DNA from: Planctomycetota bacterium
GTDB taxonomy: Bacteria; Planctomycetota; Phycisphaerae; FEN-1346; JAACEH01
NCBI GenBank assembly: GCA_016935955.1
Contig: JAFGPY010000095.1
Coordinates: 1 to 8,667 of the forward strand
Direction of reading: 5' to 3'
Length of the DNA: 8,667 bases
A program made the translations under genes and the position numbers. Positions within the stretch are counted from its first letter, which is position 1. Each line of letters starts with the position of its first letter. Below, piece by piece: positions 4,526 through 8,667 of this stretch. A model generated the notes under the pieces. That model saw only the letters and a list, made by a program, of their open reading frames with translations, made no database searches and had not been told where the DNA came from.

Positions 4526-5587
4526 ATGAGCGAGAACACACCGACTAGACCGCAACGTCGCGGAACCGCCGGCAGCATGCTCTGGCTGGCCGCCTTCGCC
4601 GCCCTCGGCGCCGTGGCCGGGCACTTCCTGGGCAACGCCGTGGAGGCCATCGGTCCCGCCTTTGGCGCCGCCCTGGGTGCCGCCGTCATGGCCATCGCCG
4701 GCGCCGGAGGCGTCTGGCTGACCGATCCGACCGTCCGCGCCGCCCGCGGCGGCGGCGATGACGCGCCGCCCATCCAGGCCATGACTTTCCGCCTCGGCAT
4801 CATCGGCGGCGGCAACATGGCCGAGGCCATTGTCCGCGGCATCGTCCGCAGCGGCGTGTTGCGGCCAAAGGACGTCTGCGTGGCCGACCCGGTGCCCGAA
4901 CGGCGACGGCTCTTCTCGGCCCTGATGCGCGTGCGAACCAGCGAAGACAACGCCGACCTCGTAACGAACAGCGACGTGGTGCTGCTGGCCGTCAAGCCGC
5001 AGATGATCGACAAGGTGATGGCCGAGATCGGCCCGTTGATGACACCGAAGAAGCTGCTGATCAGCATCGCCGCCGGGACGACCATTGCCAGGCTGTCGTC
5101 GTACTGCGGCGAGGGGGCACGGGTCGTTCGCACGATGCCCAACACGCCGATGCTCGTCGGCCGCGGCATGGTGGCCATGAGCCCCGGCGGCGCGGCCAAC
5201 GAGGACGACCTGGGCCTGGCCCGGGCGCTGCTCGGGGCGTCGGCCACGGTCATCGAGGTGCCCGAGGAGAAGCTCGACGCCGTGACGGCCGTCTCCGGTA
5301 GCGGGCCGGCCTACTTCTTCCTGCTGGTCGAGACCCTGATCGCCGCGGGCCGCGAGGCGGGCCTGTCGGACGACGAGGCTCGCAAGCTGACCGAGACGAC
5401 GTTCCGCGGCGCGGCCGAGTTGCTCGTCTCGGGCGACGTGGATGCCGCCGAGCTTCGCCGCCGCGTGACCAGTCCCGGCGGCACGACCGAGGCGGCCATC
5501 CGCTCGTTCGAGGCCGACCGTTTCGCCGAGTCCGTGGCCCGGGCCGTCAAGGCCGCACGCGACCGCAGCCGCGAGCTGGCGGGCTGA
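4526..5587 (+). CDS. proC: Pyrroline-5-carboxylate reductase with N-terminal two-TM extension
   Basis: Catalyses the last step of proline synthesis, reducing 1-pyrroline-5-carboxylate to L-proline with NAD(P)H. The ProC part spans about residues 86-353 (268 aa, normal ProC length). Landmarks are the nucleotide-binding GIIGGGNMAEAI (91-102), AVKPQ (155-159), RTMPNTP (202-208), AVSGSGPAYFF (255-265) and TSPGGTTEAAIRSF (315-328), which includes the P5C-binding serine/threonine loop. The first ~85 residues are extra: a basic start (RPQRR), two Ala/Gly-rich hydrophobic segments (about 17-36 and 45-65), then a polar linker. ATG 4526 has good ribosome sites (AAGGA 4518-4522, GGAG 4513-4516). ATG 4781, where ordinary ProC would start, has none, so the extension is probably translated. 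This predicts a membrane-anchored enzyme with a cytoplasmic catalytic domain. It appears to be a single-gene unit with no other proline genes in view. Confidence 0.93.
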   Translation: MSENTPTRPQRRGTAGSMLWLAAFAALGAVAGHFLGNAVEAIGPAFGAALGAAVMAIAGAGGVWLTDPTVRAARGGGDDAPPIQAMTFRLGIIGGGNMAEAIVRGIVRSGVLRPKDVCVADPVPERRRLFSALMRVRTSEDNADLVTNSDVVLLAVKPQMIDKVMAEIGPLMTPKKLLISIAAGTTIARLSSYCGEGARVVRTMPNTPMLVGRGMVAMSPGGAANEDDLGLARALLGASATVIEVPEEKLDAVTAVSGSGPAYFFLLVETLIAAGREAGLSDDEARKLTETTFRGAAELLVSGDVDAAELRRRVTSPGGTTEAAIRSFEADRFAESVARAVKAARDRSRELAG

Positions 5588-5809: not shown

Positions 5810-6418
5810 TCACGGTCCGCCATTGCGGCGGGCGTACTTCTGGATCGTCTCGACGATGGTCTTGTGGACCTTGGTGGGATGGCTGACGTGCTGCCACATG
5901 GCCTCGATCTGGCCGGTGCCGGCCGTGGCGAAGAAGATCGTGCCCACGCCGAGCACGCGCTGCACGAGGTTGCGGCAGACAAAGGTGTTCTGCAGCCGCT
6001 CCAGGGGGCACTCGAACAGTTGAATATTCAGGACGCCGCGCTGGCGGATGACACGGCGATCGGTCAGGATGTAGATGCGGGCGAACCATTGCAACAGGGC
6101 CCACGCCAGCCGCAAGGCGATGATCACCAGGCCGATCTGGGTGAGCGTGTGTTGCGCGCCGCTGAAGTGCCGATCAACGATCGACAGGTTGCCCGTGAGG
6201 ATCGCCAGTACGCCGAGGGCCAGGATCGGGGCGCTGACGAGGGGAATGAACCACAGCGACGGCTTGAGCCGCAGAATAACGATCTCGCCGTCGGCCAGCA
6301 GGTCCTGGGCCACGGCGCTGGTCTGCGGAGCCACGGCTTCGCCGGCCGGTCCGCCGGAGCCGTTGGTCACGCGGATCGTTGCCCTGTCGGTTGTCGGTTT
6401 CTCCTGGCAGACAACCAT
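5810..6418 (-). CDS. Two-TM membrane protein with bacterial PH (bPH2, YdbS-like) domain
   Basis: Predicted inner-membrane protein of 202 aa. Seen: a polar, probably disordered N-terminus (1-38), then a GEIVILRLKPS strand. Two TM helices follow (about 54-75 and 92-112). A bPH2 domain (about 113-195) carries the family pattern IYILTDRRVIRQRGVLNIQ, CPLERLQNTFV, RVLGVGTIFFATAG. Known members are small membrane proteins of mostly unknown role, sometimes protecting against envelope stress. The start is taken as ATG 6418: AGAGGAG (6431-6425 on the minus strand) lies 6 nt before it, whereas ATG 6424 directly abuts that site. The stop is TGA at 5812-5810. The gene lies 47 nt after the terminase stop on the same strand, so cotranscription is possible. 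A membrane PH protein is not a usual neighbour of a terminase. The family is fairly sure; the function is unknown. Confidence 0.85.
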   Translation of the reverse strand: MVVCQEKPTTDRATIRVTNGSGGPAGEAVAPQTSAVAQDLLADGEIVILRLKPSLWFIPLVSAPILALGVLAILTGNLSIVDRHFSGAQHTLTQIGLVIIALRLAWALLQWFARIYILTDRRVIRQRGVLNIQLFECPLERLQNTFVCRNLVQRVLGVGTIFFATAGTGQIEAMWQHVSHPTKVHKTIVETIQKYARRNGGP

Positions 6419-6424
6419 CCGCAT

Positions 6425-6431
6425 CTCCTCT
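6425..6431 (-). promoter_or_regulatory. Ribosome binding site choosing between tandem ATGs of the PH gene
   Basis: On the minus strand AGAGGAG is followed directly by ATG CGG ATG. Zero spacing to the first ATG (6424) and 6 nt to the second (6418) favours the second as the true start. Confidence 0.65.
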
Positions 6432-6465
6432 GGTCGGCTGTGACGGTTCAAGCCTGCGACGCCGA

Positions 6466-7980
6466 TCACCAATAGGCCCGGCTGCGCACCTGGCCGCGAC
6501 CGCGGCCGAACAGGTTTACCACCAGGTACCGCAATGCATCGATCAGGTGGTCGTGCGTGCCGTCCTTCTCGGGCAACTCGGCTCCGGCGGCACCGGCGCC
6601 CGGCGGGTAGTGGTAACTCGCCAAGGCCCGAATCAGCCGCTCGCACCGCGGGTCGACCACCAGCCGCTCCGTGCCCAGAGCCGGAGCCAGCAGCGCCCGC
6701 ACCCGGTCCACTCCCTCCATGATGCCGCTGCGGCAACTGGTTGTCAATATGCCGTGACGTGCCAACTCGTGGCAAGCGCCGCTGCCGGTCACGTCGCCGC
6801 GCTGCCACCCGGCCGGGTCGCAGAAGGTCGCCCGGATGGGCCACGGCCGCGAAGCCAGCACGGTCGCATGCTCCGAGACGGTCTTGCGGCTCTCGACGTA
6901 CTCGTCCAGCACGTGCACGACCGCCGTCTCGGGGTCGTCGCCGATAACCTGGGCCCACAGGCAGACGAACGGGTTGACGTAGCCGAAGTCCAGCGAGCGA
7001 TAGATCGGCGAGCGGCCGTCGGGCGACAGGCGGCGCACGTGCCGCTGCGGGTTGAAGCGCGAGAAGACCAGGTGCTCCTGCCGCGGACGCAGACAGAGCA
7101 TCTCGGACTCCCAGGCCTCGCGTCCGCTGCGGCGCATCTGGGCGATGGCGTCGTCGATGCGGAGGAACCCGTCGGCCTGCCGCGCGCGGCCGCGGCAATC
7201 CTCGGCGAGCGGGCACCGCGAACACGAACGGTCGCCGGTGCAGCGCTCGATGGTTTCCCACAGGCACCAGGCCATCAGGGCAAAGCCGCGATACCCGCGC
7301 GGCGCGTCCCGGTCGTCGTCCTCGTCGCCGCCTGCGGCCACGTTCCATGCCCCGTCGACCACTTGGCTCATCAGGCCGTAGGGGTGGTGCATCGTGCTGA
7401 AGGCCTCGATGCTCGCCCGCACCGAGCCGCGCGACTGGGTGACGAACTGCACCGCCCGCCAGATGTCCGGGTCGAACTCGTCCACCTCGTCGCACCGCAC
7501 CCGCTGCACGCGCTGCCCGCGGACGCCGCGCTGACTCTGCGTCAGAATCTCGATCACCGATCCATTGGTCAGTTCCGTGCGGCGGCTGCGCGGCTGGTCG
7601 GCCAGCAGGTCGGCGAAGTGCGGCCGCCACTTGGCCCCCAGGTACTCGTACATCCGTTCGCTCTGCTGCAGCGATCCGCCGAGGATGCGCGTCTGCAACC
7701 CGGGCCGGAAGATGCTCTCCAGGTGCGTCGCCACGCTGCCCAGTTCGGTCTTCGCGCCGCCGCGATTGGCCCAGACCACCAGGTCGCCGTGCGTCTGGAA
7801 GAACGAGCCGGCTACGTACTCCATCGGCGCGACGTGGCCCGGGCAGACGCGCCGCCGCGGAATCGCCAGGCCGTAGTAGCAGCGCACGAACTGCCACAGT
7901 TGCCCGACCGTCCGCGGCTCGCGCAGCCGCAGGTGCCGCAACAGGCCCGACAGACGATGTGCCGCATCAGAGAGGATCAT
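6466..7980 (-). CDS. Phage-type terminase large subunit (TerL): packaging ATPase and nuclease
   Basis: 504-aa TerL-like protein. In phages TerL binds the portal, pumps DNA into heads with ATP and cuts it. ATPase half: Walker A-like VVWANRGGAKTEL (N72-T78, K77), Walker B-like VRCDEVDEFD (D164-E165), and a possible coupling motif EAFSTM near 192-197. Nuclease half (RNase H-like): SLDFGYVNP (D331), FCDPAGWQR (D388) and HDHLIDALRY (D477, D481), the usual acidic set. Between them sits C247-x5-C253-x2-C256-x5-C262, a likely metal site, followed by DGFLRIDDAIAQ and EAWESEMLCLRP, which resemble the linker of some phage terminases. Start ATG 7980 has GAGG 9 nt upstream (7993-7990). In-frame ATG 8010 has no site. 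The start overlaps the upstream 165-aa gene by 14 nt. No portal or capsid gene follows within the window. Motifs appear intact, so it is probably functional. Its base composition looks like its neighbours'. Confidence 0.85.
   Translation of the reverse strand: MILSDAAHRLSGLLRHLRLREPRTVGQLWQFVRCYYGLAIPRRRVCPGHVAPMEYVAGSFFQTHGDLVVWANRGGAKTELGSVATHLESIFRPGLQTRILGGSLQQSERMYEYLGAKWRPHFADLLADQPRSRRTELTNGSVIEILTQSQRGVRGQRVQRVRCDEVDEFDPDIWRAVQFVTQSRGSVRASIEAFSTMHHPYGLMSQVVDGAWNVAAGGDEDDDRDAPRGYRGFALMAWCLWETIERCTGDRSCSRCPLAEDCRGRARQADGFLRIDDAIAQMRRSGREAWESEMLCLRPRQEHLVFSRFNPQRHVRRLSPDGRSPIYRSLDFGYVNPFVCLWAQVIGDDPETAVVHVLDEYVESRKTVSEHATVLASRPWPIRATFCDPAGWQRGDVTGSGACHELARHGILTTSCRSGIMEGVDRVRALLAPALGTERLVVDPRCERLIRALASYHYPPGAGAAGAELPEKDGTHDHLIDALRYLVVNLFGRGRGQVRSRAYW
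7195..7242 (-). other. Four-cysteine cluster within the terminase
   Basis: Codons 247-262 encode C-x5-C-x2-C-x5-C (CTGDRSCSRCPLAEDC), between the ATPase and nuclease halves. The spacing suits zinc or possibly an iron-sulphur cluster. Metal binding is inferred from the pattern only. Confidence 0.55.
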
Positions 7981-8464
7981 CGTTTGTCGCCTCGTCGTCG
8001 GGATCGTCATGGAGGGTGGTTGCGTCGTCCGCGGACGGTGCGGCCGCCCCCGCGTCGGCCAGGATGCCCAGCACGGTCTCGACCTGCGCATCGCTGAGGG
8101 CGCCCACCATGGAGCGCTCTGCGGCGCCGGTCTCGGCGGCCTGCTCGGTGCGTTCTTCCCCGTGGAACTCCCCGTACAGCCGCATCATGTCCACGGCGGC
8201 GCGTCGGGCCAGGTCCTTGCTCTCGCCCTGAATCAGTTCGCCCAGCAGGACCACCGCGGTGGGACCATAGGCCAGCACCAGTCGCCGCATCCGTCGTTCT
8301 GTCTCGTTGGGCAGCGAAGCCAGGTACTGGTGTGCCTCGATGTGCCGCCGGCGGCGCTTCTTGCCGCGCGGCACGTGGGCCAGCAGCCTCTCGAGTTCGG
8401 CCGGCAGGGGCTCGCCCAGCCAGTGAGCCCGCAGGGCCTCACGGTCTTGGTCGCTCAGGGTCAT
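7967..8464 (-). CDS. Uncharacterised helical charged protein, candidate terminase small subunit
   Basis: 165-aa protein not recognised with confidence. Seen: an acidic/helical N-terminus (1-30), a basic patch PRGKKRRRRH (32-41) able to bind nucleic acid, a helical block (57-101) with AYGPTAVVLLGEL and DLARRAAVDMMRLYGEF, then an Ala/Asp/Glu-rich, very acidic tail (about 140-165). The helical block loosely resembles the repeat-like segment of some terminase small subunits, in which an Ala-Leu helix is followed by a helix of type RxxAAxxxL. Position supports this: TerS genes usually lie directly upstream of TerL, and here the two overlap by 14 nt. Its ATG overlaps the upstream ATPase stop by 4 nt (ATGA, 8461-8464), with GAGG 4 nt before the start. 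An accessory DNA-binding regulator is the alternative. The gene is well supported by overlaps on both sides; the role is inference. Confidence 0.75.
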   Translation of the reverse strand: MTLSDQDREALRAHWLGEPLPAELERLLAHVPRGKKRRRRHIEAHQYLASLPNETERRMRRLVLAYGPTAVVLLGELIQGESKDLARRAAVDMMRLYGEFHGEERTEQAAETGAAERSMVGALSDAQVETVLGILADAGAAAPSADDATTLHDDPDDEATNDDPL

Positions 8465-8667
8465 AGGGCCTCGGAGTTGGCAGCCGTCATGGCGGGGCTG
8501 TACTGCTCGACCTGGCGGCCGGGGAGTTTGCGGATCAAGATGTCCGGGGCCAGATCCTCGGTCAGATCGTCGTGGGCCGTGGCCACCAGGAACGTCGTGC
8601 CCGTGCGGTCGGCGTACTTACGCAGCCGGTAACTCAGGGCCCGGGCCGTGCGGCGGTCGAGCGTCGA
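8461..8667 (-). CDS. ABC-type ATPase, C-terminal end (partial)
   Basis: The last 68 codons of a minus-strand gene that continues beyond the right edge, ending in TGA at 8463-8461. Seen: STLDRRTARALSYRLRKYA, matching the ABC D-loop (S-x-L-D) after Walker B. FLVATAHDDLTEDLAPDILI follows, with H32 of the fragment as the H-switch histidine, then a short tail (KLPGRQVEQYSPAM). The HDD...EDL.PD pattern recalls stand-alone ABC ATPases of the COG2401 type (ATPase linked to a GNAT-like acetyltransferase region). That assignment rests on a short stretch and is tentative. It is not a typical transporter ATPase tail, and no permease is seen. Its stop overlaps the start of the 165-aa gene by 4 nt, so ATPase, 165-aa protein and terminase are made from one message. 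Walker A and B lie outside the window. A DNA-repair or SMC-like ATPase is an alternative. Confidence 0.7.
   Translation of the reverse strand, partial: STLDRRTARALSYRLRKYADRTGTTFLVATAHDDLTEDLAPDILIRKLPGRQVEQYSPAMTAANSEAL

Follow-up and report, generated by a model that had tools for sequence, protein, structure and literature searches.

How does a DNA-packaging motor come to lie in a bacterial genome with no capsid gene beside it? The window examined here, by which we mean the whole 8,667-nt stretch of planctomycete contig JAFGPY010000095.1, raises this question: it ends in three overlapping minus-strand genes, for an ATP-binding cassette (ABC) ATPase, a protein resembling a small terminase subunit (TerS-like) and a large terminase subunit (TerL), and a Pfam scan finds no head genes after TerL within it. 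The initial annotation had offered three options for this cassette, namely the edge of a prophage, the edge of a gene transfer agent (GTA) or a domesticated motor with a non-viral role. The second of these fits best, and neither the prophage nor the capsid-free motor is the best reading. We consider it likely that the cassette serves as packaging module in a GTA-like system of a planctomycete class (probably the Phycisphaerae). Such a system would derive from a phage, be inherited vertically and lie dispersed over the chromosome, and its function would probably be the loading and movement of the host's DNA.

The 504-aa product of the last gene in the cassette (6466..7980, minus strand) is a large terminase. 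Its best match among the PHROG terminase families has E = 3.9e-15, a sequence search of the PDB returns the large terminases 5oe8 (E = 5.7e-8) and 5oea (E = 1.2e-7), and Foldseek places its AlphaFold model with the large terminases of phages D6E, T4, P22 and SPP1, at whole-chain TM-scores of only about 0.3; the match to Pfam Terminase_6C, at 19.6 bits, lies under the 22.6-bit cut-off. The model has a mean predicted local distance difference test score (pLDDT) of 65.4, with residues 151-300 mostly below 50 and, from residue 301 on, 12 of 21 ten-residue blocks at 80 or above. The ATPase motifs and those of the RNase-H-like nuclease are intact, as the initial annotation had read them: the Walker A lysine K77, the Walker B pair D164/E165 and the nuclease aspartates D331, D388, D477 and D481 are invariant in 17 aligned TerLs, the window's included. 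Among 85 full-length TerL frames, Walker B and the first and last nuclease motifs are each present in all 85, a strict GG-x-KT occurs in 73 (eight of the remaining 12 were inspected, and all read GKT), and DPAG occurs in 78, three of four others inspected reading DPSG and the fourth not being resolved. The same 17-sequence alignment holds four invariant cysteines between the ATPase and nuclease halves, C247, C253, C256 and C262 (window 7195-7242, minus strand, residues 247-262); this pattern recurs in 81 of the 85 full-length frames and is a possible zinc site, and we know of no such cysteine site in other large terminases.

The two genes ahead of TerL are joined to it as first annotated, the open reading frames confirming an overlap of 4 nt between the ABC ATPase and 165-aa genes (8461-8464) and one of 14 nt between the latter and TerL (7967-7980). 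The ABC ATPase gene leaves the window, which retains its 3' end (68 codons, 8461..8667, minus strand, in the list of open reading frames), and its identity is borne out by the full-length homologue on planctomycete contig L001 of genome G001 (L001:564-1343), which matches PF00005 with 47.8 bits and phrog_293 with 119.5 bits; it is a single-domain ATPase of the phrog_293/phrog_11143 kind. The 165-aa protein (7967..8464, minus strand) is predicted to be all helical. Neither it nor its scanned relatives match a family above cut-off, and its model (pLDDT 47.8) is too poor for a structure search, so the label TerS-like, which we keep, denotes position and predicted helices, not fold.

Viral homologues of the terminase indicate where the cassette came from. 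The closest viral TerLs, on L054 (38% identity) and L055 (30%), are each followed at once by a Pfam Phage_portal gene, and on a further viral contig, L057 (TerL 27%), both an SPP1-type portal and an SU10-type capsid lie downstream of TerL. The source of the cassette is thus, to judge by its genes, a tailed phage, and its oddity is that no portal adjoins it.

To describe the cassette across the class we compared 87 TerL loci, namely those of the window, of L001 and L002 and of 84 stretches from other planctomycete genomes, and searched a sample of 298 class genomes drawn from a larger group. The contigs are often short, and the titles of two source records mark them as metagenome assemblies. 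TerL is found in 177 of the 298 genomes, in 149 of them at E <= 1e-50, the presence counts for TerL, GNAT acetyltransferase and capsid being taken from the overall search tallies. When genes within 9.5 kb of TerL are counted with profiles that were derived from these very loci and put through one iteration, the ABC ATPase and GNAT are each near TerL in 61 of the 87 loci, a helix-turn-helix (HTH) gene in 55, the TerS-like gene in 39, a LexA-like repressor in 35 and ParB in 33. ABC, GNAT, ParB and TerS-like genes are all present in 28 loci, together with the HTH gene in 24 and with the repressor too in 13. Some loci stop at contig ends, and therefore the absence of a gene there is not its absence from the genome. 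The fullest packaging locus begins with a divergent S24/HTH repressor and continues with an HTH gene (sigma-region-4-like), ABC, GNAT, ParB, TerS-like and TerL; in the order of bacteria to which G001 belongs, the last-but-one two genes are swapped. Scanned members carry the Pfam names Peptidase_S24 with HTH, Sigma70_r4, ABC_tran, Acetyltransf and ParB_N. Head and tail genes just upstream, which the initial annotation had thought might return the cassette to an ordinary phage, do not appear in the loci examined; the genes upstream of TerL are ABC and GNAT in 61 of the 87 and, in fewer, the repressor, HTH and ParB genes, and the comparison across the class finds the genes recurring outside ordinary prophages.

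The window and L001 hold a reduced ABC-TerS-TerL form of this operon. ParB and GNAT of G001 lie on a contig (L239) other than that of ABC-TerS-TerL, which means that the packaging operon itself is split in this genome. Three tandem genes that look like tyrosine recombinases by eye adjoin the displaced ParB-GNAT pair (L239:11632-15016, G001:C47) and might explain the split. GNAT is present in 194 of the 298 genomes, 135 of which have a strong TerL. Eight genomes without this TerL that were inspected (L240-L245, L257 and L258) carry a single ABC-GNAT fusion gene in frames of 452-566 aa with no such TerL adjoining; in L241-L243 an HTH gene that weakly matches the repressor profile lies near the fusion.

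Head genes are absent beside the window's cassette, as had been noted, and the initial annotation holds in that local sense; across the genome it does not, since portal and capsid genes lie elsewhere in the same genomes. Portal tests were made on 86 TerL genomes picked from the stronger TerL matches with usable contigs. The portal family PF04860 is rare among them (4 of 21 genomes, three above cut-off, then 5 of 65), as is the capsid family PF05065 (4 of 21, then 11 of 65), and the view that TerL genomes have no head genes, which followed from these counts, was overturned by the SPP1-type portal PF05133. This family, run on TerL genomes and 14 control genomes, matches in 70 of the 80 TerL genomes tested (G346, G406, G436, G478, G519 and G570 were left out), 68 above cut-off and 69 with a single match, and in 2 of the 14 controls. 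The 24 portal stretches share a cluster of portal, scaffold-like coiled coil (21 of 24), capsid (20 of 24) and connector-like gene (18 of 24), followed by more variable genes, most of them unassigned; at least two capsid genes, those of G233 and G465, escaped the gene finder used on these stretches, although a profile search places both beside the portal. On L268, the capsid matches PF17236 (SU10_MCP) with 289.8 bits and the portal PF05133 with 63.4 bits. The head cluster of G001, the window's relative, is on L277, with a portal (48.0 bits), a scaffold-like gene and the C-terminal part of a capsid (246.6 bits), and in its order TerL occurs in six of eight genomes, all six with a PF05133 portal and five with a PF17236 capsid match. 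Phage-derived capsid, portal and terminase genes are thus present in host genomes both across the class and in G001, and because the portal and capsid are found in the same genomes as TerL, a capsid-free motor is not the reading that fits best.

The terminase and the capsid occur together. The capsid family, also sought in class genomes without a strong TerL, is present in 130 of the 298 class genomes and in none of 14 controls; 122 genomes have both a strong TerL (E <= 1e-50) and the capsid and 141 have neither, so that 122 of the 149 genomes with a strong TerL have the capsid, against 8 of the 149 others (odds ratio 80, kinship ignored). The packaging and head loci are dispersed. In 31 of the 70 genomes with a portal, TerL is on the same contig as the portal, at a distance of 1.8 kb to 979 kb, which is no more than 70 kb in 26 of the 31. 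In six genomes that are nearly whole in one contig and have TerL, portal and capsid matches (G097, G129, G289, G342, G347 and G465), the TerL-portal distances are 11, 38, 59, 168, 689 and 979 kb; the portal match of G097 is short (25.9 bits), with the capsid about 69 kb from it. Neither in the window nor in the loci compared for gene order does a portal or capsid gene directly follow TerL, and among the 31 genomes the nearest portal lies 1.8 kb downstream (G308, L187), the others at least 7 kb away. A limited screen with four recombinase seeds was positive in 3 of 109 loci, two of them among the 87 TerL loci. In G308 a single stretch has a phage-like order of repressor, HTH, ABC, GNAT, TerS-like, TerL, portal, scaffold, capsid and connector, together with a 340-aa gene on the opposite strand and a 214-aa gene, an order that may resemble that of the ancestor. 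The 214-aa gene, between ABC and GNAT (L187:11817-12461), resembles an NlpC/P60-type hydrolase by eye; it has no Pfam match and one PHROG match of a different name, and is a possible lysis or entry gene.

To assess the agreement of these genes with the host phylogeny, we compared them with RpoB, a single host marker, in 21-24 genomes. Distance matrices correlate at r = 0.903 for TerL and portal, 0.770 for TerL and RpoB, 0.735 for portal and RpoB and 0.796 for capsid and RpoB; the six pairs span r = 0.735 to 0.903, and none of 2000 permutations reaches the observed value in any of them. Maximum-likelihood trees of 21 genomes recover the same groups in TerL, portal, capsid and RpoB (G347 and G342 with G129; G174 and G036 with G551; G233 with G465; G430 with G567; G001 with G297; G493 with G280). 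Some deeper branches differ or stay open, such as the places of G059, G308 and G079, and hence we do not claim full agreement; for the most part, though, the trees of TerL, portal and capsid match that of RpoB. The ratio of nonsynonymous to synonymous substitution (dN/dS; Nei-Gojobori, single pairs, the closest with finite dS) is 0.04-0.22 for the module genes and 0.02-0.10 for RpoB, far below 1. In the closest pairs dS is within about 2-fold of that of RpoB, as in G342/G347 (TerL 0.75, portal 0.65, capsid 0.60, RpoB 0.64) and G036/G097 (TerL 0.66, portal 0.48, RpoB 0.33). The module thus appears to have been inherited vertically with its hosts across the clade, under purifying selection.

Some copies are damaged or have been invaded. 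The capsid gene is split near the same position, profile columns ~49 to 73, in G001 (L277:11071-18193, G001:C106) and G439 (L304:99-11929, G439:C1), and a large serine integrase, of 588 and 598 aa respectively, borders each split; in G439 a protease-capsid protein of 632 aa (PF25209, phrog_4523) is encoded within the insert as well. Further cases may be hidden in the split or partial capsid matches of G222, G352, G405 and G437. In G187, TerL lies in two frames with a stop (L049:9227-10669), likely a sign of decay, and a profile search finds no PF17236 capsid in that genome.

The packaging operon has a switch of its own at many loci. In all 35 loci that have it, the LexA/CI-type repressor is on the strand opposite the operon; it lies outside the window. 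Two repressors scanned combine PF00717 with an HTH, and a PDB search with a scanned member finds lambda CI (E = 4e-5). With widened patterns the Ala-Gly site is present in 32 of 35, the serine in 34, the lysine in 34 and all three in 30, and with a stricter pattern all three are present in 24 of 35; we take these to be the self-cleavage positions of LexA. The protein is accordingly a repressor of the LexA/CI kind, with HTH and S24 domains and predicted self-cleavage, and its S24 domain suggests that DNA damage induces the operon.

From these parts a course of events can be proposed. DNA damage would lead the repressor to cut itself, at the positions just named, and its loss would switch on the packaging operon. 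Scaffold, portal and capsid would build a procapsid, and ParB, ABC and GNAT may help in the choice or preparation of DNA; they probably act at the DNA end of packaging, because they adjoin TerS-TerL in phages and bacteria alike. TerS and TerL would then cleave DNA, for the most part that of the bacterium itself, and pump it in until the head is filled, and the particles would leave the cell. A bolder version, which we advance tentatively as a serious possibility, is that of an independent planctomycete GTA, made of a packaging operon under repressor control (ABC-GNAT-ParB-TerS-TerL) and, at a distance from it, an SU10-type head locus, both of which predate the split of the sampled lineages. 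Through it damaged cells would package and share chromosomal DNA, and it would be parasitised in G001 and G439 by a serine-integrase element inside the capsid gene, which in G439 brings its own protease-capsid protein as if swapping shells. If true, the idea of the GTA would have had a separate origin, with another capsid, other motor partners and another switch; a route of DNA exchange in the class would be explained and a function suggested for the ABC-GNAT pair. The work gives a concrete gene set for tests in cultured members, and shows that a terminase standing alone in a stretch of genome can form part of a system with its head genes tens or hundreds of kilobases off.

Several points weigh against a GTA-like system. 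It is known from its genes alone, as particle, induction and transfer have not been observed, and for the window's own lineage the other parts are judged from the relative L001/G001. TerL stands alone in 19 of the 87 loci, some at contig ends; 27 of the 149 strong-TerL genomes give no capsid match, and eight capsid genomes have no strong TerL. The scaffold match is below cut-off (27.1 of 35 bits), the 13 head-locus proteins scanned give only a sub-threshold tail-completion match (18.2 of 24.5 bits), and no lysis or receptor gene was identified, no genome-wide lysis search having been made. The Fisher and Mantel figures ignore relatedness, dN/dS is 2-4 times that of RpoB in the same pairs, and the broken TerL of G187 and the interrupted capsid genes of G001 and G439 mean that some species may have lost the function. 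Homology and synteny alone cannot prove a GTA or tell it from a remnant prophage, as PMC11841831 states. The broken genes in G187, G001 and G439 would also suit ordinary prophages, or their decaying remnants, sampled repeatedly, as would parts with phage homologues, the portal that follows TerL in L054 and L055 and the matching portal and capsid types of L057. We think this improbable, however, as the portal occurs once per genome across the class, the genes agree with RpoB and are under purifying selection, their loci are up to 979 kb apart, and the four-seed screen found recombinases in so few loci (3 of 109).

The same shell and motor could instead form a killing particle like PBSX, induced by the SOS response, that packages host DNA and kills rivals with no gene transfer. 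A repressor of the LexA/CI kind and an intact motor fit this equally well, and the gene set alone cannot separate transfer from killing, but no contractile-tail gene is present in the 13 head-locus proteins scanned (tails were not searched genome-wide), and we regard such a particle as unlikely. That the motor was domesticated for a capsid-free role in DNA transfer, repair or defence might be read from the packaging loci compared for gene order, which have no head genes by them (a portal is within 7 kb only in G308 among the 31 genomes), and from the TerL genomes lacking a PF17236 match; yet with a portal in 70 of 80 TerL genomes, a capsid in 122 of 149 and trees that largely agree, there is little chance that it is so. 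A defence role in particular was dropped: PADLOC matches the ABC ATPase to the MADS proteins mad3/mad8 (best E = 1.2e-17, mad3, L001) and links neither TerL nor GNAT to any defence protein. Satellites combine a terminase and a repressor of their own with no head genes, and the planctomycete locus, with no adjoining head genes, resembles this logic; that it is a satellite packaging itself in the shell of a helper phage is nevertheless very improbable, given a recombinase at only 2 of 87 TerL loci with the four seeds, head genes in most of the same genomes and vertical inheritance. A GTA-like system thus remains the reading that we prefer.

The flanks of the cassette are chromosomal. As the initial annotation had it, TerL is followed by a membrane protein with a PH domain (Pfam bPH_2; 5810..6460, minus strand) and then by convergent housekeeping genes, among them ProC, a pyrroline-5-carboxylate reductase by Pfam (4526..5587, plus strand). 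On L001 the same five genes stand in the same order (ABC, TerS-like, TerL, PH protein and convergent ProC), so the arrangement in the window is not chance; the PH protein adjoins TerL in these two stretches and in none of the other loci compared for gene order. Third-position G+C is similar in the module (0.83-0.90) and in five neighbouring genes (0.85-0.91), and Rfam and tRNA scans of the window give no matches. Elsewhere in the class, L230, L231, L232 and L233 (G494, G555, G430 and G144) hold a small element with an HK97-type capsid (PF05065). By eye, each element also has a repressor-like HTH gene and a protease-like gene, and three of the four have a tape-measure-like gene; no portal or terminase can be recognised in this way.

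We found no published description of this system in the literature searched, which left out most subscription journals and all preprints. PBSX-type particles are SOS-inducible, are kept by their hosts and package host DNA; the difference here is the lack of a recognised contractile-tail gene in the 13 head-locus proteins, no genome-wide search for tails having been made. The closest likeness in gene order is to the SSU5-type phages (Salmonella SSU5, Pseudomonas nickie and Rhizobium RHEph10), which carry two ParB-like genes (the second annotated as a DNA methyltransferase in two of the three), an ABC ATPase, a GNAT homologue, a DNA-binding protein in the place of TerS, and TerL. In nickie and RHEph10 an annotated portal follows TerL; SSU5 has the same gene order, spanning the ends of its linear record, and the gene that follows TerL there groups with the portals of the other two. 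An ABC ATPase ahead of a packaging module, first taken to be non-standard, is therefore regular in these phages (ParB-ParB-ABC-GNAT-TerS-TerL-portal). The ABC identity is 37.8% to SSU5 and 39.5% to nickie, that of GNAT to the SSU5-type phages is 26.0, 28.5 and 27.7% over the aligned part, and ParB, ABC, GNAT, TerS and TerL are jointly near one another in 28 of 87 planctomycete loci. Where these phages have the portal and capsid at once after TerL, the planctomycete system has its head genes elsewhere and a LexA/CI-type repressor and an HTH gene in front of the operon.

With SU10-like phages the system shares the capsid family PF17236 (289.8 bits), and L057 pairs the same capsid and portal families; in contrast to such phages, the planctomycete genes are spread across the host chromosome and passed on together with it. 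We know of no GTA with an ABC/GNAT/ParB operon of this kind. The TerS of a GTA has no DNA-binding domain, the gene cluster is free of replication and integration genes, and the particles hold host DNA, which they pass to recipients. According to PMC11841831, known GTAs (RcGTA, CcGTA, BaGTA, Dd1, VSH-1 and VTA) combine packaging with structural genes, occupy several loci, are inherited vertically in large clades and arose independently more than once, and the genomic marks named there, namely packaging and structural genes, several loci, vertical inheritance and a clear phage origin, are present in the planctomycete genomes. The same source notes that new candidates are sought by likeness to known GTAs, which works in alphaproteobacteria and poorly elsewhere, several origins being known (PMC11841831). 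The planctomycete system, known from its genes, differs from the known GTAs in belonging to another phylum and in combining an SU10-type capsid and an SPP1-type portal with ParB, ABC and GNAT partners and an S24 repressor of its own.

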